From: Nitrospirota bacterium
Lineage (GTDB): Bacteria; JACPQY01
DNA: 64,000 bases
Reading direction: 5' to 3'
Assembly: GCA_016190245.1 (NCBI GenBank)
Contig: JACPQY010000031.1
Coordinates: 5,712 to 69,711 of the forward strand
How positions within the stretch are numbered: position 1 is the first letter of the stretch; every line of letters begins with the position of its first letter. Shown here in pieces: positions 54,680-64,000 of the stretch. The position numbers were made by a program, and so were the translations under genes. The notes below the pieces were generated by a model. The model was not told where the DNA came from and did not search any database. It was given only the letters and a program-made list of their open reading frames with translations.

Positions 54680-55012
54680 CTATGTCAGGACGAGAAACGC
54701 CGCCACGGTGTCGTCGCCGAAGCGTCGGATGTCATCGAATCGACGTCTCAAGATTCGCTCAATGTTCTGCGTGGAACAGTTCCCTCGCTGAATCCAGATC
54801 ACTTTGGGTGGGGCGCCGGTGAGAATGGACCTCGCGTAGAAGTCGGAGTCTTTGGACACGATCACGTAACGTTCTCTCCTGGCAAAATTCCAAACCTCTT
54901 CGTCCGTGGCCCGTTCCAGCCGAACATCCCTCACGTGTTTGGAATCCCGGAATGTGTCCCGTAGCTTCTCAACAAGTCCCGGTGACAGATTCTGATCGAA
55001 CAGGAGCTTCAG
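54680..55012 (-). CDS. DUF5615 PIN-like toxin (CTG start)
   Basis: About 110 residues. LKLLFDQNLSPGLVEKL carries the first catalytic Asp, ERYVIVSKDSDFY the central acidic pair, and IWIQRGNCSTQNIERIL the late strand. The first ATG/GTG start (GTG, 54934) would delete the catalytic Asp. In frame upstream, CTG at 55012 overlaps the antitoxin TGA as CTGA, mirroring the ATGA/GTGA coupling of other TA pairs, so I use it. It pairs with the DUF433 antitoxin immediately upstream. Confidence 0.8.
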   Translation of the reverse strand: MKLLFDQNLSPGLVEKLRDTFRDSKHVRDVRLERATDEEVWNFARRERYVIVSKDSDFYARSILTGAPPKVIWIQRGNCSTQNIERILRRRFDDIRRFGDDTVAAFLVLT

Positions 55013-55254
55013 GCGGGTAGGCTTGTCAGCTTCCGTTCGCGGTCGGCGGCGAAAGCAAGCACGGCTCGGATGTCTTGCGCCGTCAGGTCCGGAAAGTCTT
55101 TGAGAATCTGATCTTCCGTCATGCCGGAGGCAAGGTAATCGAGGATGTCATAAACCGTGATCCGCAGGCCCCGTATGCAGGGCTTGCCCCCCCTCTTCTC
55201 AGGCTCGATGGTGATATATTTCCTGAAATCCACGGCTTCCGTTTTCCGTTTCAC
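55009..55254 (-). CDS. DUF433-family antitoxin (second copy)
   Basis: An 81-residue protein: YITIEPEKRGGKPCIRGLRITVYDILDYLASGMTEDQIL, then FPDLTAQDIRAVLAFAADRER, a standard DUF433 winged helix. It precedes and overlaps the DUF5615 toxin gene. It is diverged from the copy at 31074, so the two modules were probably acquired separately. It lies just upstream of, and divergent from, the restriction operon. Confidence 0.87.
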   Translation of the reverse strand: MKRKTEAVDFRKYITIEPEKRGGKPCIRGLRITVYDILDYLASGMTEDQILKDFPDLTAQDIRAVLAFAADRERKLTSLPA

Positions 55255-55358
55255 GAGAATAGGATACGACCACCGGTGCGGGAAAGCAATGATAACAGGG
55301 TGGCATTTAGCGGGACCGAAAAACTCCCACCTGAGGAATGGGTAGTGGAGTCACATCA

Positions 55359-57896
55359 GTGAAAGAGGCCGCAGCCCGAATCAAGATCAACCGGCTCCTT
55401 GAAGCCGCGGGCTGGCGATTCTTTCCGGAAGGCAGCGCACCGGCCAACATCCGTTTGGAGCCGAGTGTCACCGTCAACTCGACCGAACTGGATGCGCTCG
55501 GGAACGATTTCGAGAAAACCGGGAAGGGCTTCATCGACTTCCTCCTTCTCGACGCCAAGGGCTTCCCGCTCCTGGTTCTGGAAGCCAAAGCAGAGAGCAA
55601 GAGCCCGCTCGTCGGCAAGGAGCAGACACGCAAGTACGCCCGTTCCCAGAACTGTCGATTCGTCATCCTCTCAAATGGCAACCTCCACTACTTCTGGGAT
55701 TTAGAACGCGGCAACCCGTACATCATTACGTCATTCCCATCGCCTGACTCGGTCATCGGCTACCGCAAGGTAACGCCCAACCCGCAACGCCTGATCGATG
55801 AACTGGTCGGCGAGGACTACATCGTTCTGACGCAACGGCCGAATTACCAATCAGAGGCAGCCTGGGGCAATGAGGCGGAGCGCCCCGGCTACATCCAGGC
55901 GAACAAGCTGCGCTTTCTGCGTCCGTACCAACTCAAAGCGATCCACGCCCTGCAACGCGCGGTCCGAGAGGGGAAGGATCGCTTTCTGTTCGAGATGGCC
56001 ACCGGCACCGGCAAGACCCTCACCGCGGGAGCCGTCATCAGGCTCTTCCTCCGATCTGGAAACGCCCACCGCGTGCTCTTTCTGGTGGACCGCCTCGAAC
56101 TGGAGGATCAGGCCGGCAAGAAGGCCGACTCCCCTCTGCTGCTGTTGGCCGCCGATTTCAAAACGGTGATCTACAAGGAGAACCGGGACGACTGGCGCCG
56201 CGCGGAAATCGTCGTCACCACCGTCCAATCCCTTCTCTTCAACAACAAGTACCAGCGGCTGTTCTCCCCGACCGACTTCGACCTGGTCATCTCGGACGAA
56301 GCACACCGGTCCATCGGCGGCAACGCCCGTGCGGTCTTCGATTATTTCATCGGCTACAAGCTGGGGCTCACCGCCACGCCGCGTGACTACCTCAAGCGGT
56401 TCGATAAGAGCAATCCGTCCACCCGCGATCCGCGCGAAGCCGAACGCCGCCTACTGCTGGATACCTACCGCACCTTCGGTTGCAATAACAGCCAGCCGAC
56501 CTACCGATACTCGCTGCTGGATGGCGTAAAGGACGGTTATCTGATCAATCCCACGGTTGTGGATGCCCGCACCGAGGTCACCACTGAGCTGCTCTCTGAA
56601 GAGGGTTTCGTGGTCACATTCACCGATGACCAAGGCGATGATCAACAGGAAGCCTTCAAGCAGCGCGAGTTCGAAAAACGATTCTTCTCCGATGCCACGA
56701 ACCAGCTCTTCTGCAAGACGTTCCTCGAAAATGCGCTGCGCGATCCCATTAGCGGCGAGATCGGCAAGTCGATCATCTTCGCCGTCAGCCAGAACCACGC
56801 TGCCAAGCTGGCGCAGATCCTCAATCAGATGGCCGACCGCATGTTTCCCGGCAAGTATCAGTCGGACTTCGCTGTCCAAGTCACTTCACAGATTCCCGAT
56901 GCCCAGCAGTTCACCATCAACTTCGCCAACAACAACCTGCTTGGCTCGGCCAACTTCCTGCCCGCTTACAAGACCAGTAAGGCGCGGGTGTGTGTGACCG
57001 TTGGCATGATGACCACCGGGTATGATTGCACGGATATCCTGAACCTCGGCCTCTTCCGTCCCATCTTCTCGCCGACGGATTTTATTCAGATCAAAGGGCG
57101 TGGCACCCGCAAGCACAACTTCCTGGAGCAACTGTTCGACGACAATCTCAAGGACAGCGTCCGGAACCCCGACAAGACGGCATTCAAGCTCTTCGACTTC
57201 TTTGCGAACTGCGAATACTTCGAGGAGAAGTACAACTACGACGAGGTCATCGAGCTCCCCCCGCCCAAAGGAACTGGCGGCGGTGGAGGTGGAGGCCCCG
57301 TGGTTGTGGGCGGCACTTACGAGCACCTGGGCGCCGACATCCTTTCCGAAATCAGGGAAGAGCCCATTGGGCTTGAGGGTATGAAGATCGACCGCATGTT
57401 CTTCGAGAAATTCGAAGACACCGTGCGCAAGAACGACTTCATCGCCAAGGCCGTCGAGACCGGGCAGTGGGATCGCGTGATCGACTATGTAAACCGTGAA
57501 GTTTTCGACAAACCCGAGGAATACTACACCCTCGACAAACTGCGCAAAGCCGCCGTCGTAGACCGCCGTCTAACCCTGCGGGAGATCCTGGCAAAGATCT
57601 TCGGCCTGATTCCGCGCTTCAAGTCCAAGGACGAACTGCTCGAAGAGGAGTTCGCCAAATTCGTCGCCGATTACAAGCCGGACGAGGCCACCGCCATCCC
57701 AGCCATCAAGACCTACTTCAAGGCCTACATCACCAGCGACCGGGTGCGCCACATCATCGAGAGCCGGCAATTCACGGAACTGGCTACCAACCCCGTGTTT
57801 TCCACGCGCGATTTCAAGGCGGTGCCGAAGAAGTACCGCTCGCTCGTCCCGGAATACGTCAAGGACTACGTCTCGCTGAACCAGTTTGCAGCGTAG
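55359..57896 (+). CDS. hsdR: Type I restriction enzyme R subunit (EcoEI-type)
   Basis: About 845 residues. The N-terminal PD-(D/E)XK nuclease shows DFLLLDAKGFPLLVLEAKAES and the QXXXY motif EQTRKYAR. The SF2 motor has Walker A ATGTGKT (about 214), DEAH in VISDEAHRSI (about 312), LGLTATPRDYL and QIKGRGTRKHN. A run of seven Gly (GTGGGGGGGP) forms a linker before the C-terminal EcoEI-R domain. It translocates and cuts unmodified DNA with the M and S subunits. GTG at 55359 is preferred because GGAG lies 8 bases before it; ATG at 55338 is also possible. Confidence 0.93.
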   Translation: MKEAAARIKINRLLEAAGWRFFPEGSAPANIRLEPSVTVNSTELDALGNDFEKTGKGFIDFLLLDAKGFPLLVLEAKAESKSPLVGKEQTRKYARSQNCRFVILSNGNLHYFWDLERGNPYIITSFPSPDSVIGYRKVTPNPQRLIDELVGEDYIVLTQRPNYQSEAAWGNEAERPGYIQANKLRFLRPYQLKAIHALQRAVREGKDRFLFEMATGTGKTLTAGAVIRLFLRSGNAHRVLFLVDRLELEDQAGKKADSPLLLLAADFKTVIYKENRDDWRRAEIVVTTVQSLLFNNKYQRLFSPTDFDLVISDEAHRSIGGNARAVFDYFIGYKLGLTATPRDYLKRFDKSNPSTRDPREAERRLLLDTYRTFGCNNSQPTYRYSLLDGVKDGYLINPTVVDARTEVTTELLSEEGFVVTFTDDQGDDQQEAFKQREFEKRFFSDATNQLFCKTFLENALRDPISGEIGKSIIFAVSQNHAAKLAQILNQMADRMFPGKYQSDFAVQVTSQIPDAQQFTINFANNNLLGSANFLPAYKTSKARVCVTVGMMTTGYDCTDILNLGLFRPIFSPTDFIQIKGRGTRKHNFLEQLFDDNLKDSVRNPDKTAFKLFDFFANCEYFEEKYNYDEVIELPPPKGTGGGGGGGPVVVGGTYEHLGADILSEIREEPIGLEGMKIDRMFFEKFEDTVRKNDFIAKAVETGQWDRVIDYVNREVFDKPEEYYTLDKLRKAAVVDRRLTLREILAKIFGLIPRFKSKDELLEEEFAKFVADYKPDEATAIPAIKTYFKAYITSDRVRHIIESRQFTELATNPVFSTRDFKAVPKKYRSLVPEYVKDYVSLNQFAA

Positions 57897-57904
57897 AAGA
57901 CGAG

Positions 57905-58657
57905 ATGGCGAAGATCAGACCCAGTGGAGGCTACCGCGACCTGCGCAGTTTTCAGATTGCGACCATTATCTACGACGCCACCTACTGGTTCTGCGAGCGC
58001 ATCCTGGAACCGCGGTCTCGGATGAGCGACCAAATGGTGCAGGCGGCGCGCAGCGGACGGCAGAATATCGCCGAAGGCAGCCGCGCATCCGCCACCTCGT
58101 CCCAAACCGAACTCCGGCTGATGAACGTCGCCCGCTCCAGCCTGGAAGAACTCCTCCTGGACTACGAGGATTTTCTGCGGCACCGGCGGCTGCGAATATG
58201 GGCGCCGGATTCAGCGGAGGCTACGGCGGTGCGGAAGATTGGCCAACAGCATCCGACGGATCCGTCTGGTCTGACGGATGAGCAGCGCTACGCGCTCTAC
58301 GCCCCCTGGCTTGATCACGAAGACCCGGCCATTCGCGCGAATGCCTTGCTCTGCCTCATCCACCAGGCAAACTACCTGCTGGACAAGCAAATTGTGGCAC
58401 TGGAAGCGCAGTTCATTCAGGAGGGCGGATACAGCGAGCAATTGGCCACCGCGCGCTTGGAGGAGCGGCGGCGGCGGAAGAAGGCTGATGATCCGTCCGA
58501 TCCGTCGGATCCGACCGATCCGAATGATCTCATTCCCCCATGCCCCAAATGCGGCAAACCCATGGCCCTGCGCACCGCTCAAAAGGGCAAAAGCGCAGGC
58601 AAGCGGTTCTGGGGCTGCTCCGGCTACCCCGAGTGCAAGGGAATCGTGGATTTCTAG
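57905..58657 (+). CDS. Four-helix-bundle protein with C-terminal C4 zinc finger
   Basis: A 250-residue protein. Residues 10-100 match the S23/four-helix-bundle family (YRDLRSFQIATIIYDATYWF, then SGRQNIAEGSRASATSS and RSSLEELLLDYEDF). A helical suffix domain follows (HEDPAIRANALLCLIHQANYLL). An Asp-Pro-Ser-rich hinge leads to a topoisomerase-type zinc finger (CPKCGKPM...FWGCSGYPECKG). It sits between hsdR and hsdM (8 bp after hsdR), so it is probably part of the restriction system, perhaps as a DNA-binding accessory. Its role is unknown. Confidence 0.75.
   Translation: MAKIRPSGGYRDLRSFQIATIIYDATYWFCERILEPRSRMSDQMVQAARSGRQNIAEGSRASATSSQTELRLMNVARSSLEELLLDYEDFLRHRRLRIWAPDSAEATAVRKIGQQHPTDPSGLTDEQRYALYAPWLDHEDPAIRANALLCLIHQANYLLDKQIVALEAQFIQEGGYSEQLATARLEERRRRKKADDPSDPSDPTDPNDLIPPCPKCGKPMALRTAQKGKSAGKRFWGCSGYPECKGIVDF
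58490..58525 (+). repeat. 9-bp tandem repeat coding Asp-Pro-Ser, copy array 1
   Basis: Four tandem copies of a gatccgnnn unit encode DPS-DPS-DPT-DPN in the hinge of the four-helix/zinc-finger protein. A looser related palindrome lies at 58251-58280. Further arrays of the same unit are at 58660-58690, 59303-59329 and 59957-59983. Confidence 0.85.
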
Positions 58658-58705: not shown

Positions 58706-60394
58706 ATGCTCGACACCGATACCAAACGCCGCATAGACACCGCCCGCGACATCCTCGTGGGGAAGGTGCCAGACCCCAAGAGCCAGGTCGAACAGATCAC
58801 CATTGCCCTCATCTACAAGTTCATGGACGACATGGACGCCGAGTCCGAAGAGCTGGGTGGCCACCGCAAGTTCTTCGCCGACGGCTTCGCCCGCTACGGA
58901 TGGGCCAAGCTGATGCGATCGGGCCTGGGCGGGCACGAGACCCTGAACCTCTACGCAGAGGCCATCGCCAAGATGCCGGAGAACCCCGGAATCCCGCCGC
59001 TCTTCCGCGACATCTTCAAAAACGCCTACTTGCCGTATCGCGACCCGGAGACCCTGCGCGCCTTCCTGAAGATCATCGACGAGTTCGAGTACGACCACTC
59101 CGAACGCCTGGGCGACGCCTTCGAATACCTGCTCTCCGTGCTCGGCTCGCAGGGCGATGCCGGACAGTTCCGCACGCCACGCCACATCATCGACTTCATC
59201 GTCGCCATCATCGACCCGAAGAAGCACGAGACCGTGCTCGATCCTGCTTGCGGCACCGCGGGGTTCTTGATTTCAAGCTACAAACACATCCTGCGTGCCC
59301 ACGATCCGTCGGATCTGTCGAATCCGTCCGTGAAGCCGCTTACCCCTGATGAACGCGGACGGCTGGCCGCCAACTTCAAGGGCTACGACATCTCCCCCGA
59401 CATGGTGCGCCTTTCGCTGGTGAACCTGTATCTGCACGGCTTCACCGACCCGCATATCTTCGAGTACGATACGCTCACCTCGCAGGACAAATGGAACGAA
59501 TACGCCGACGTGATTCTGGCGAACCCGCCGTTCATGTCGCCGAAGGGCGGCATCAAGCCGCACAACCGCTTCTCGGTGCAGAGCAAGCGCAGCGAAGTGC
59601 TGTTCGTGGACTACATGGCTGAGCACCTGACGCCCGGTGGCCGTGCCGGCATCATCGTGCCCGAGGGCATCATCTTCCAGAGCCAGACCGCCTACACCCA
59701 ACTGCGCAAAATGCTGGTGGAGGAGTACCTCGTCGCGGTCGTGTCGCTGCCCGCCGGTGTGTTCAATCCGTATTCGGGCGTCAAGACTTCGATCCTCATC
59801 CTCGACAAGTCGCTGGCTAAGAAGACCAACACCATCGCATTCTTCAAGATCGAGAACGACGGCTTCGGCTTGGGCGCCCAGCGCCGGCCCGTAATCGGGA
59901 GCCAATTGCCGTCATCCGCCCTCGCCCTCAAGCGTTGGCTCCAAGGGGCCGCGGGCGATCCGTCGGATCCGCCAGATTCGTCCCATTTCCTCGTGGTGCC
60001 GAAAGAGAAGATCGCCGCGAATGGCGATTACAACCTGAGCGGAGAGCGGTATCGGGAGGGAGCGGTATCAGAGACCGTATACCCGCTTGTGCCAGTTGGG
60101 CGATTCATGAAGGATAGTGTGAAGACCGTTGATCCTCGGGCCACTCCCGACGAGATGTTCGAACTTTGGAGCATCCCTGCGTTCGACGCCGGCAAGCCAG
60201 AGTTGCTTCGCGGCGGAGCAGTCGGCTCTCAAAAGAAAGTGGTCGCTCCTGGCGACGTCCTCCTGTCCCGCATCATCCCTCACATTCGCCGTGCATGGAT
60301 CGTTAGGCAGAATGCAGATGGTCGGAGACAAGTTGCTTCGACGGAGTGGATTGTCTTTTCAAGCGATGAAGTTCTGCCCGGATTCCTCCGGTAA
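58706..60394 (+). CDS. hsdM: Type I modification methylase HsdM with first half of a fused HsdS
   Basis: A 562-residue frame. The N-terminal helical HsdM domain is followed by SAM motif I VLDPACGTAGFL (about 177) and catalytic NPPF (about 272, ILANPPFMSPKGG), an N6-adenine methylase. From about residue 425 it runs into a target-recognition domain (YNLSGERYREGAV, VPVGRFMKDSV, VVAPGDVLLSRI), so M and S were fused. It ends at TAA (60392-60394) after VLPGFLR; the next 289 codons continue in the same frame with the rest of HsdS. DPS repeat arrays lie in frame at 59303 and 59957. Confidence 0.88.
   Translation: MLDTDTKRRIDTARDILVGKVPDPKSQVEQITIALIYKFMDDMDAESEELGGHRKFFADGFARYGWAKLMRSGLGGHETLNLYAEAIAKMPENPGIPPLFRDIFKNAYLPYRDPETLRAFLKIIDEFEYDHSERLGDAFEYLLSVLGSQGDAGQFRTPRHIIDFIVAIIDPKKHETVLDPACGTAGFLISSYKHILRAHDPSDLSNPSVKPLTPDERGRLAANFKGYDISPDMVRLSLVNLYLHGFTDPHIFEYDTLTSQDKWNEYADVILANPPFMSPKGGIKPHNRFSVQSKRSEVLFVDYMAEHLTPGGRAGIIVPEGIIFQSQTAYTQLRKMLVEEYLVAVVSLPAGVFNPYSGVKTSILILDKSLAKKTNTIAFFKIENDGFGLGAQRRPVIGSQLPSSALALKRWLQGAAGDPSDPPDSSHFLVVPKEKIAANGDYNLSGERYREGAVSETVYPLVPVGRFMKDSVKTVDPRATPDEMFELWSIPAFDAGKPELLRGGAVGSQKKVVAPGDVLLSRIIPHIRRAWIVRQNADGRRQVASTEWIVFSSDEVLPGFLR
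59303..59329 (+). repeat. 9-bp tandem repeat in hsdM, array 3
   Basis: gatccgtcg, gatctgtcg and aatccgtcc encode DPS-DLS-NPS in a loop of HsdM between motif I and the following strand (RAHDPSDLSNPSVKPL). The array is a multiple of nine bases and keeps the frame. Confidence 0.8.
59957..59983 (+). repeat. 9-bp tandem repeat in hsdM-hsdS junction, array 4
   Basis: gatccgtcg, gatccgcca and gattcgtcc encode DPS-DPP-DSS at the boundary between the methylase domain and the first target-recognition domain. Confidence 0.8.
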
Positions 60395-61264
60395 GTTCTC
60401 GTCTCGGACTTCTTCCATGCGTCGTTCATGCAGACGATTACTGGCGTTGGCGGTTCACTCTCTCGCGCAAATCCGGCGGCGGTGGGGGACATTCACATCC
60501 CCCTGCCACCCCTCGACGTGCAGAAGGAGATCGTGGCGGAGATCAATGGCTACCAGAAAGTCATCGACGGCGCCCGCGCCATCCTCGACCACTACCGCCC
60601 CCACATCCCCATCCACCCCGACTGGCCGATGGTGGAGTTGGGCGAAGTCTGTGAGGCAATAATGACCGGCCCATTCGGCAACGCACTTCACCAGAGCGAT
60701 TACGTCGAAGACGGCATCCCCGTCATCAATCCACAGAACATCGTCGATGGAACGATCAGATGTGATGGCGTGAAAATGGTCTCCCCAGCTACCAGAGACC
60801 GCCTGAAGGAGTTCATCGTTCGCGAAAATGACATCGTCATCGGTCGACGTGGCGAAATGGGGCGATGCGCCGTTGTCCCCACAGAGATGAACGGCTGGCT
60901 CTGTGGCACAGGCTCCTTCGTAATTCGGTTGAAGGAGGAAAGCGATGTGCGATTCGCGTGCTTTCAGATCGCGTCTCCGCGGGTGAAAGCCTACCTCGAA
61001 GAGCAAGCCGTTGGTGTCACGCTGAAGAATCTGAATCAGGGCATCCTATCCGCCCTCAAGATCCCCCTCCCGTCCCTCGCCACGCAGCGAGCCATCGTCG
61101 CCGAGATCGAGGCCGAGCAGGCGCTCGTCGCCGCCAACCGCGAACTGATTGCCCGCTTCGAGAAGAAGATCCAGGCCACCCTCGCCCGCGTCTGGGGCGA
61201 AGACGTACATCTTTCCATCAGTGGCGCGAAAGAAAGTGACAGCACCGGAGAAATGTCCAGATGA
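60395..61264 (+). CDS. hsdS: Remainder of fused specificity subunit HsdS, after an in-frame stop
   Basis: Directly after the TAA the same frame reads VLVSDFFHASFMQTITGVGG and then IHIPLPPLDVQKEIVAEI, the end of the first target-recognition domain and the conserved HsdS spacer helix. A second recognition domain (WPMVELGEVCEAIM...LKIPLPSLATQRAIVAEIE) and a final helix complete HsdS. Translation alone could restart at ATG 60428 (MQTITGVGG), but that would lack half of the first domain. The pair is best explained by one nonsense mutation in a single hsdM-hsdS gene of about 852 codons. It overlaps the next gene by 4 bp. Confidence 0.85.
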   Translation, partial: VLVSDFFHASFMQTITGVGGSLSRANPAAVGDIHIPLPPLDVQKEIVAEINGYQKVIDGARAILDHYRPHIPIHPDWPMVELGEVCEAIMTGPFGNALHQSDYVEDGIPVINPQNIVDGTIRCDGVKMVSPATRDRLKEFIVRENDIVIGRRGEMGRCAVVPTEMNGWLCGTGSFVIRLKEESDVRFACFQIASPRVKAYLEEQAVGVTLKNLNQGILSALKIPLPSLATQRAIVAEIEAEQALVAANRELIARFEKKIQATLARVWGEDVHLSISGAKESDSTGEMSR

Positions 61265-63264
61265 GCAACGTCAACATAAAACGCGCAGTCGAGAACATCC
61301 GGGCCAATACCACGGTTTACACGCCGGTCGTCGAAATGATCGTCAACGCTATCCAGGCCATTGACGAATCCGGCAGGACGGATGGAAGAGTTTCGATCCG
61401 CGCACAGCGGAGCAGCCAGACCGAGCTGGATGACAGTCTTCCGGAGATCAGTAGCTTTGAAGTCGAGGACAACGGCATCGGGTTCACGGACGTACACCGC
61501 AACTCCTTCGACACGCTCTATACCGATCTCTGGATCAAGGAAGGCGGCAAAGGCTTTGGCCGGTTAACCGGCCTCAAGTACTTCGAGGACCTTCACGTCA
61601 AAAGCGTCTATCGGGACGGGAGCGGCTTGAAGGCCCGCAGTGTTTCCATGGGCAAGGACAACGACATCATCGTCCGTGAAAAGGTGACGGCGAGTGAGAA
61701 ACAGGAACCCGGCACGGTGGTGACCCTAAGTGTCTTGAAGAAGGGGCGCTCCTTTGACAAGACACTTCAGACGATTGGCAGAAACCTAGTCGAGCGGCTA
61801 CTTCCGTATTTCATCACGCAGGACTACGTGTGCCCGGAGATCGTACTCTCGGAACATGACGGGAGCGATGCCATCCGCCTGAACGACTTTGTCAGCAATG
61901 AGTTGTCCGCCACGATCCGGGAAATCGCGGTTGAAAGAAAACGCTTCACCCTGAAGGCATTAGACACCGAAGAAGAGTTTCTGGTCCGAGTCTTCAAGCT
62001 CTATGCCCCGAGGAGCCACAAGAGTAGGATCGGTCTCGTCGCGCACAAGAGGGAAGTTGCCGGCTCCGCGATCCACAAGTACATCCCGGAGTTCGAGGAT
62101 GAGTTCTATGAAAAGGACAGCCACGGCGAGATCGACCGCGAGCGCAACTACATCATCAAAGCCTATGTGTTCGGTCCGTACCTCGACCTTAACGTGTCAC
62201 TGGAGCGCGGCGGATTCGAGTTCCAGATGGAAAGCGACCTCATTCTGGGGATAGCCCAGGCCGAGATCGAGCGGGATGCCGCGGCGATCGCCAAAGAGGC
62301 AGTGGGTGCTGACATCACCCTCCGGCAGGAAAAGAAAAAGGAGCGCGTCCAGTCGTACGTGGACGAGGAAGCGCCGTGGCACAAGGCGATGCTGGAGAAG
62401 ATCGACCTGAGCGGGATGCCATACAACCCGACGAACGAAGAGATTGAAACCCGGTTGCAGAAGGAGAAGTTCGCGCAGGAAACCGAGATCAAGAGAGATG
62501 TCGCCAAGCTGCTTGCAGAGAGCAATTTCGATAACGTGAAAGAGAGCGTTCTGGAGATAGTCAGCAAAATCTCGGGCACCAGCAAGAACGACCTGATTCA
62601 CTACATCGCGCTTCGGCGAACAATCATCGACATCTTCGGGAAGAGCCTTGAAGTGAATGATACGGGCGCGTATGCATCCGAGGGCGTGGTTCACGACATC
62701 ATCTTTCCGCGCAAGGGCGACACGGAGGTTACTTCCTTCGATAACCACAATCTTTGGATCGTGGATGAGCGACTGAACTTCACTACCTACGTCTCCTCCG
62801 ACGGGCCGCTAGACGGCAAGAACAACGAGCGCCCGGACCTACTGGTTTACAACAAGCGCGTTCTCTTTCGCGGGGACAATGAAGCGAGCAACCCAATCAC
62901 AATTTTCGAGTTCAAGAAGCCGCAGCGGGACGACTTCGCCAATCCGTCCTCTGAGGAAGACCCGATCCAACAGATCGTGCGTTACGTCAATAGTATCCGC
63001 GACGGGAAATACAAGACTCCCGAAGGGCGCAAGATGCTGGTCGCCGAAAACACCCCGTTCTACGGATATGTCGTCTGCGACCTGACGCACAAGGTCGAAT
63101 CGTGGCTTGAGCGCGAAAAGGATTTCAAGCCAATGCCTGACCGGCTGGGCTGGTTTCAGTGGATGGGCAACATCAATCTGTATGTCGAGGTCATCAGTTG
63201 GGACAAGGTTCTGAAGGACGCGAAGATGCGAAATCAGATTTTCTTCCAGAAGCTCGGAATCTAG
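61261..63264 (+). CDS. GHKL ATPase fused to PD-(D/E)XK nuclease
   Basis: A 667-residue protein. The N-terminal GHKL (Hsp90/histidine-kinase/MutL-like) ATPase has the N box VVEMIVNAIQAID (E25, N29), the G1 box EDNGIGF (D70, G72, G74) and the G2 lid GGKGFG (G95-G100). A long middle region links to a C-terminal RecB/HsdR-like nuclease: RPDLLVYN (Asp about 527), IFEFKKPQ (E-F-K about 550) and QQIVRYV (QXXXY). It lacks kinase phosphotransfer domains. It overlaps hsdS by ATGA, so it is part of the restriction operon. The architecture suggests an ATP-gated DNA nuclease in defence. I know no named system with exactly this composition. Confidence 0.8.
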   Translation: MSNVNIKRAVENIRANTTVYTPVVEMIVNAIQAIDESGRTDGRVSIRAQRSSQTELDDSLPEISSFEVEDNGIGFTDVHRNSFDTLYTDLWIKEGGKGFGRLTGLKYFEDLHVKSVYRDGSGLKARSVSMGKDNDIIVREKVTASEKQEPGTVVTLSVLKKGRSFDKTLQTIGRNLVERLLPYFITQDYVCPEIVLSEHDGSDAIRLNDFVSNELSATIREIAVERKRFTLKALDTEEEFLVRVFKLYAPRSHKSRIGLVAHKREVAGSAIHKYIPEFEDEFYEKDSHGEIDRERNYIIKAYVFGPYLDLNVSLERGGFEFQMESDLILGIAQAEIERDAAAIAKEAVGADITLRQEKKKERVQSYVDEEAPWHKAMLEKIDLSGMPYNPTNEEIETRLQKEKFAQETEIKRDVAKLLAESNFDNVKESVLEIVSKISGTSKNDLIHYIALRRTIIDIFGKSLEVNDTGAYASEGVVHDIIFPRKGDTEVTSFDNHNLWIVDERLNFTTYVSSDGPLDGKNNERPDLLVYNKRVLFRGDNEASNPITIFEFKKPQRDDFANPSSEEDPIQQIVRYVNSIRDGKYKTPEGRKMLVAENTPFYGYVVCDLTHKVESWLEREKDFKPMPDRLGWFQWMGNINLYVEVISWDKVLKDAKMRNQIFFQKLGI

Positions 63265-63272
63265 TGATAGTC

Positions 63273-63833
63273 ATGGAAAATGCCGCCCAACTGGGCAACT
63301 ACCTGCCGATCTCATGTAAGAGCCCGAAGGAGCAGGAGTACATTGCCTTCCTGTGGGATGCCTTCGAGACGAACTACGCCCACGGCAAGTATCAGTTTGC
63401 CTTCCTCGCCTATCACATGCTCACGATGAGCTTCGTCTACTTCAACATCTGGCAGATCAGGCAGACGGAACCCAAGGACTTCGCGAAGGGCCTCATCGGC
63501 TTCGGCAAGGACATCGAGAAGAACCTGCTTGAAGCGACATCGCCCTTCGTCTTCAGCTCCGTGAACGAGCGCAGTATCCTGCGCTTCCTCAAGCTCATTG
63601 GTTGCGACAACGACAAGATCGGCACTTACGCCAAGTTGGTAGACGACCGCAATGACACCGCCCACCCCAACGGCAACATCTTCTTCAGCACCCAGAAGGC
63701 GCTCGACACCAAGATCACCGAGATCCTGCGCGTCGTGGACGAGCGGAGCCTGTCAATGAAAATGAGACAGCCCATGTTCGAGTTTAGTGTTGTGCCTCCT
63801 CGTGGCGACGGGCCTGAGTCTTGGGTGGGTTGA
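63273..63833 (+). CDS. HEPN-like protein, 3' end replaced by IS sequence
   Basis: An all-helical protein with RX4H as R126-NDTA-H131 in KLVDDRNDTAHPNG, typical of HEPN RNase or related domains. It starts at ATG 63273, or at GTG 63264, which touches the stop of the GHKL-nuclease gene, so the two are co-translated. After residue about 160 the sequence switches to the end of an IS3-family element (from about 63751), so the last about 26 residues are IS-encoded and the native C-terminus is lost. The catalytic motif is retained. Confidence 0.7.
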   Translation: MENAAQLGNYLPISCKSPKEQEYIAFLWDAFETNYAHGKYQFAFLAYHMLTMSFVYFNIWQIRQTEPKDFAKGLIGFGKDIEKNLLEATSPFVFSSVNERSILRFLKLIGCDNDKIGTYAKLVDDRNDTAHPNGNIFFSTQKALDTKITEILRVVDERSLSMKMRQPMFEFSVVPPRGDGPESWVG

Positions 63834-64000
63834 TCCACACCTGGGTGGGCGGGGCCGAGGGCTGTGGCACGCCGGCGGGGAAGCGTTCCGGGTGTGCGGC
63901 GTAGGCCGCGACGAGCGCGGTGGCGCGGGCTGCCAGGCGCTCGGTGACGCAGCCGTGGTGGACGTCCTCGGGCGTGAGGAGCCCGAGCCCTGCGTGGTGG
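63751..64000 (-). mobile_element. IS3-family insertion sequence, left part, running off the window
   Basis: The end of the element is inferred at about 63751, where TGTCAATGAAAATGAGACA looks like an IS3-type terminal inverted repeat beginning with TG. It interrupts the HEPN-like gene. The remainder of the element, its other terminus and any target duplication are beyond the right edge. Confidence 0.65.
63784..64000 (-). CDS. IS3-family transposase, C-terminal part
   Basis: On the minus strand the frame entering at the right edge reads HHAGLGLLTPEDVHHG, RATALVAAYAAHPERF and TQVWINPPK, ending at a TAA at 63784-63786. This is the end of the DDE integrase core and tail of IS3-group OrfB proteins. 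The upstream catalytic residues lie outside the window. It overlaps the reading frame of the HEPN-like gene on the opposite strand by 50 bp. Confidence 0.85.
   Translation of the reverse strand, partial: HHAGLGLLTPEDVHHGCVTERLAARATALVAAYAAHPERFPAGVPQPSAPPTQVWINPPKTQARRHEEAQH

Follow-up and report, generated by a model that had tools for sequence, protein, structure and literature searches.

The window analysed here, a 64,000-bp stretch of contig JACPQY010000031.1 from a Nitrospirota bacterium, includes at nucleotides 61261 to 63264 of the forward strand a gene whose 667-amino acid product is probably a single-chain GHKL-Shedu (paraMORC3-type) defence nuclease, carried as an intact cargo gene in a decaying type I restriction operon. 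The original prediction for this region knew of no named system with exactly this protein and the HEPN-like protein encoded next to it. That statement does not hold for the GHKL protein, which has the architecture named paraMORC3 (PMC2292703) and resembles the Vibrio cholerae Shedu protein VcSduA (PMC12137116). Anti-phage enzymes of the GHKL-Shedu kind have thus been described before, and the window protein adds a member to them.

The protein was compared with 36 full-length relatives that share 24-87% identity with it, giving an alignment of 37 sequences. A complete GHKL site consisting of N, G1 and G2 boxes had been predicted, and these motifs are real: E25 and N29 (N box), D70-G72-G74 (G1) and G95-G98-G100 (G2) are invariant in the 37 sequences, as is R316, which we infer to be the catalytic basic residue of an S5-type transducer. 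The Pfam HATPase_c match is weak (E 6e-5, below the cut-off). An AlphaFold2 model of the full-length protein (m330d55a8c642), built with the 37-sequence alignment, had a predicted local distance difference test (pLDDT) score of 82.5. In the model the best matches of residues 1-357 (nucleotides 61261 to 62331) were Hsp90, MORC2 and SMCHD1, with Z scores of about 18 over 276-299 residues and root mean square deviations of 4.0-4.9. The N-terminal half is therefore modelled as a MORC/Hsp90-like GHKL-S5 module, the MORC2/Hsp90 fold and the invariant R316 being the features expected of the S5-type transducer.

The C-terminal region, residues 436-667 (nucleotides 62566 to 63261), is a Shedu-like PD-(D/E)XK nuclease, because its profile matched that of Shedu with 95.8% probability as compared with 6.6% for HsdR_N, and because of its structural ranking. 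The prediction of a nuclease-like residue set in the same chain as the ATPase was borne out, as D526 and the E550-x-K552 motif are invariant in the 37 sequences, and Q571 is present in every row of the alignment except one, which is gapped at that position. Pfam gave no named nuclease domain above cut-off in the window protein, and the identification rests on profile-profile and structure comparison. When the full-length model was compared with known structures only GHKL folds were listed, that domain filling the list, and the nuclease region was therefore folded separately (model madf43263c7a6, pLDDT 83.9). In the VIA-align comparison of this model, Shedu chains took ranks 1, 2, 3 and 5 (8ti9, Z 9.6; 8ps4, 9.2; 8ps5, 9.1; 8ti8, 8.6), with McrC and FokI below Shedu and N.BspD6I.

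Several observations weigh against this assignment. The structural Z values for Shedu, 8.6-9.6, are moderate, with N.BspD6I close behind at 8.6. An independent profile-profile test of the nuclease region was therefore made, in which hhalign against an eight-member canonical Shedu alignment gave 95.8% (E 7.7e-9, 192 columns), the control against the type I HsdR_N domain gave 6.6%, and a comparison with one lone Shedu sequence was uninformative (0.9%). With Foldseek every match to this region had an E-value of 0.01 or worse, McrC and FokI ranking first, weakly. The Pfam family SduA_C (PF14082) is absent from the HMMER matches of the window protein and is not among the 25 families matched by most of the 37-protein set at E 1; a canonical Shedu encoded by a Vibrio fluvialis plasmid (L009) matches it at 1.3e-25. 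The nuclease can therefore be considered a divergent branch of Shedu. The likely orthology between the window protein and VcSduA, in turn, rests on architecture, motif numbering and domain homology, not on direct alignment. A search of PDB sequences with the window protein and the 37-member profile gave nothing convincing, and scans with Pfam, NCBIfam, PADLOC and PHROGs named decisively neither this protein nor the HEPN protein encoded downstream.

The GHKL-Shedu gene is a portable stand-alone cargo gene, because its relatives are mostly solitary or are found behind differing, unrelated partners. They occur in 56 plasmid records, one phage and 33 viral-contig loci and are sporadic in genomes: a profile screen across 290 genomes turned up a single further member of full length, and no second copy was found among 60 genomes searched. 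The upstream partner is hsdS in the window, in L014 and in the Salinivibrio plasmid locus L007, an Eco57I-like enzyme in L003 and L018, and, with an ATGA overlap, an AAA_13/SMC-like ATPase in L015-L017, L019 and L020, whose GHKL proteins are 83-84% identical to that of the window; other relatives have no such partner. In the V. fluvialis plasmid (L009, 7556-10950) the canonical Shedu gene follows hsdRMS and adjoins and overlaps the GHKL-Shedu gene. In a tree the window copy groups with that of L014, and partner swaps are found inside a shallow clade. Comparison of these two copies gave dN 0.064 and dS 0.55, a dN/dS ratio of about 0.12, and the gene is under purifying selection. As a separate observation, the AAA_13/SMC-like ATPase, of 872 amino acids, is present in several proteobacteria and may define a two-gene variant (L015, L016, L017, L019, L020; 6386-11004); the GHKL proteins of L015 and L017 are identical. 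In two alphaproteobacterial plasmids the GHKL-Shedu gene (L004) and an hsdR-hsdMS-HEPN cassette (L023), respectively, are preceded by genes for DUF1403 and ScpB and have TniQ/TniB/Mu-type transposase genes nearby, which suggests a shared cargo site.

The genes hsdR, hsdM and hsdS of a type I restriction-modification (R-M) system are found in one operon on the forward strand of the window. An intact hsdR (55338 to 57896) encodes an EcoAI-like restriction subunit of 852 amino acids (Pfam ResIII, 8.5e-34; NCBIfam EcoAI family, 2.1e-62), with full-length relatives of 59-85% identity in 10 other genomes out of 386 searched. The methylase and specificity sequences (58706 to 61264; N6_Mtase, 8.3e-48; Methylase_S, 1.9e-20) correspond to a fused gene, hsdMS, that is a single uninterrupted frame of 802-858 amino acids in L023, L024, L065, L066 and L067. 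In the window it reads as two frames, hsdM (58706-60394) and hsdS (60428-61264), split by an in-frame TAA at 60392 to 60394, a stop that alignment shows to be missing in L023 and at a point through which L014 is also open. The predicted coupling of the GHKL gene to hsdS is thus correct as to the overlap, the hsdS stop and the GHKL-Shedu ATG forming ATGA; in close relatives, however, hsdS does not stand as a gene of its own and makes up the latter half of the fusion. The window copy of hsdMS may be non-functional, or the stop base may be an assembly error. The source genome is a draft in 86 contigs, L014 is also from a draft, and the single-base stops in both could be such errors; these are less likely for the insertion sequence junction in the window and the HEPN deletion in L014 described below.

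Between hsdR and hsdMS lies a gene (57905 to 58657, forward strand) for an accessory four-helix-bundle protein with a C-terminal zinc ribbon (TIGR04258, 3.9e-20; Zn_ribbon_Top1, 5.2e-9), which has a relative in L066; no such gene is found between hsdR and hsdMS in L023, L024 and L065. This gap is a second insertion spot, the contents of which differ by genome (window 57905-58657; L066:8578-9497; L067:2625-3731; L082:3630-4211; L083:3521-4630) and include the four-helix-bundle/zinc-ribbon gene, a KilA-N gene plus a four-helix bundle, or Fic family genes. Upstream of hsdR, on the reverse strand (54680-55254), two small frames resemble by eye a DUF433/DUF5615 toxin-antitoxin pair.

Downstream of the GHKL-Shedu gene, nucleotides 63273 to 63743 of the forward strand code for the first 157 of about 246 codons of a HEPN gene, 65% identical to that of L023 and 81% to that of L065. 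The original prediction had extended an RX4H HEPN-like protein to 63833. The native part does contain the RX4H motif RNDTAH (63648-63665), which is conserved in relatives, although the match to Pfam RiboL-PSP-HEPN is weak (E 7e-4, below the cut-off). The remainder is foreign: intact relatives have 246 amino acids and the window copy stops after residue 157, where the DNA from 63744 to 64000 belongs to one end of an IS3-family element on the reverse strand, with a 98% repeat on contig C33 and a reverse-strand frame matching IS3 family transposases; the contig stops inside this element. The final 29 residues of the frame 63273-63833 are insertion sequence, and a genuine C-terminus up to 63833 is ruled out by the junction at 63744. 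As a consequence of the in-frame stop in hsdMS and the truncation of the HEPN gene by the IS3-family element, both overlooked in the earlier reading, the type I operon is considered to be decaying, while the hsdR and GHKL-Shedu frames stay open.

The HEPN gene accompanies fused hsdR-hsdMS genes in some loci and is missing from others. It follows them in five loci that have no GHKL gene (L023, L024, L065, L066, L067), being intact at 246 amino acids and directly after hsdR-hsdMS in the Paracoccus plasmid pPZ02 (L023), in an IMG/VR contig (L024) and in L065; L066 holds a remnant, and in L067 the gene runs off the contig. A full-length HEPN query against the 386 genomes gave matches confined to those in which this hsdR family is present as well. 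The hsdR search yielded 11 loci. In 10 of them the 3′ side is visible, and four of these, the window included, have HEPN or its remnant. Elsewhere the 3′ side of hsdMS is occupied by a Gabija pair (L084), or by a cytosine methylase and a different GHKL protein, of 654 amino acids, matching PADLOC type II restriction endonuclease models (L080). By eye, an XRE-type regulator with a PIN-like frame (L082) and a DUF262-like frame (L086) were also seen at this position.

A working mechanism for the GHKL-Shedu protein can be proposed. The N-terminal GHKL-S5 module would bind ATP, and the GHKL dimer would probably close as an ATP-driven clamp on DNA. By way of a helical linker, the C-terminal Shedu-type nuclease would then be licensed and would cut invading DNA. 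ATP gating, clamp action and DNA as the target are suggested by analogy with VcSduA and the MutL/MORC clamps, and a defence function by VcSduA, in which E27A and K557A each abolish protection (PMC12137116). The gene would have entered the hsdR-hsdMS operon near its 3′ end, joined to it by the ATGA overlap, between hsdMS and the gene of an unrelated HEPN RNase. A role of the HEPN protein in this mechanism is not supported.

The original prediction had proposed a defence module in which the GHKL nuclease acts as a sensor or backup and the HEPN protein as its suicide effector, the two working together as a pair alongside the type I system. A GHKL protein with a PD-(D/E)XK nuclease does lie inside a type I operon and is probably defensive, as was proposed, and the order hsdS-GHKL-HEPN with the ATGA overlap is kept in the window and in L014. 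However, these are the only loci where both genes are adjacent, and HEPN is broken in both, by the IS3-family insertion in the window and by the loss of its 5′ end and an in-frame TGA in L014. The intact gene lies directly after hsdMS without a GHKL gene in L023, L024 and L065, and HEPN is absent beside the GHKL relatives at every other locus examined. On account of this decoupling and breakage the pair was rejected as a system; we consider it extremely improbable. Nearly as improbable is that the operon as a whole is defunct and that only chance has kept the GHKL-Shedu frame open. The hsdMS stop and the HEPN truncation in one operon would agree with such a relic, but 667 codons are open, the catalytic residues are intact, dN/dS against L014 is low as mentioned, and hsdR is intact too.

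A partnership in which GHKL-Shedu serves the type I enzyme as an accessory nuclease, for example by reading DNA-bound HsdMS or HsdR, has more in its favor: the coupling to hsdS is found in the window and in L014, the gene adjoins hsdRMS on Salinivibrio and Vibrio plasmids, and neighborhoods of paraMORC and R-M genes have been published (PMC2292703). It is nevertheless unlikely, as the close relatives are coupled to the AAA_13 ATPase instead, many others are solitary, and VcSduA protects alone in E. coli (PMC12137116). Compatible with a stand-alone GHKL-Shedu nuclease is a different role for HEPN, that of a PrrC-like alarm of hsdR-hsdMS, silenced by the R-M complex and freed upon its inhibition, as has been proposed for R-M-linked HEPN RNases (PMC3710099). 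The occurrence of HEPN or a remnant after hsdMS in four hsdR-family loci plus L023 and L024 agrees with this role; on the other side, HEPN is missing from most hsdR-family loci and hence optional, and the window copy is truncated. The chances of this alarm role seem to us about even. It could also be speculated, with considerable doubt, that hsdMS has at its 3′ end an exchangeable slot for back-up effectors, which can be HEPN, GHKL-Shedu, Gabija, or a cytosine methylase together with another GHKL protein, and that the HEPN alarm becomes dispensable once GHKL-Shedu has arrived and then decays, both known cases being broken.

GHKL-Shedu, a recently validated yet poorly understood enzyme, is therefore seen to be encoded by a portable gene that has become translationally coupled to a range of unrelated partners, a type I R-M operon among them. 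The 36 full-length relatives with invariant residues are a resource for mechanistic work. GHKL-Shedu and HEPN resemble parts of one system but do not belong together, HEPN being the optional companion of hsdR-hsdMS. Like the R-M-linked HEPN proteins with PrrC/RloC-like logic (PMC3710099), the HEPN gene of this family lies directly behind R-M genes and has an RX4H motif; it differs in being standalone, without an ABC ATPase, in its weak RiboL-PSP-HEPN similarity, and in its truncation in the window. The ATPase modules of MORC, SMCHD1 and Hsp90 share the fold of residues 1-357 of the GHKL-Shedu protein and, unlike it, have no Shedu-type nuclease. Canonical Shedu SduA (PDB 8ti8, 8ps4) has the nuclease domain in common with it by profile and structure; in place of the SduA N-terminal region the window protein has the GHKL-S5 module, and it lacks the Pfam SduA_C match.

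The paraMORC3 proteins, named in 2008 by Iyer, Abhiman and Aravind, are typified by GHKL, S5 and a C-terminal restriction endonuclease (RE)-fold nuclease, and have a patchy, mobile and R-M-linked distribution with some standalone members (PMC2292703). GHKL motifs, an S5-type transducer and a C-terminal RE-fold D-ExK nuclease are all found in the window protein, and no difference from paraMORC3 was found, the likeness being judged by architecture and not against a paraMORC3 alignment. VcSduA, described in 2025 as a single gene conferring phage protection and assigned to Shedu type I-D (PMC12137116), likewise has an N-terminal GHKL ATPase and a C-terminal PD-(D/E)XK nuclease in one chain. Its residues E27 and K557 have near-identical counterparts, E27 and K556, in the relatives of the window protein from Vibrionaceae plasmids (Salinivibrio L007 and V. 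fluvialis L009, 30-31% identity to the window protein). Unlike the VcSduA gene, that of the window is embedded in a type I operon.

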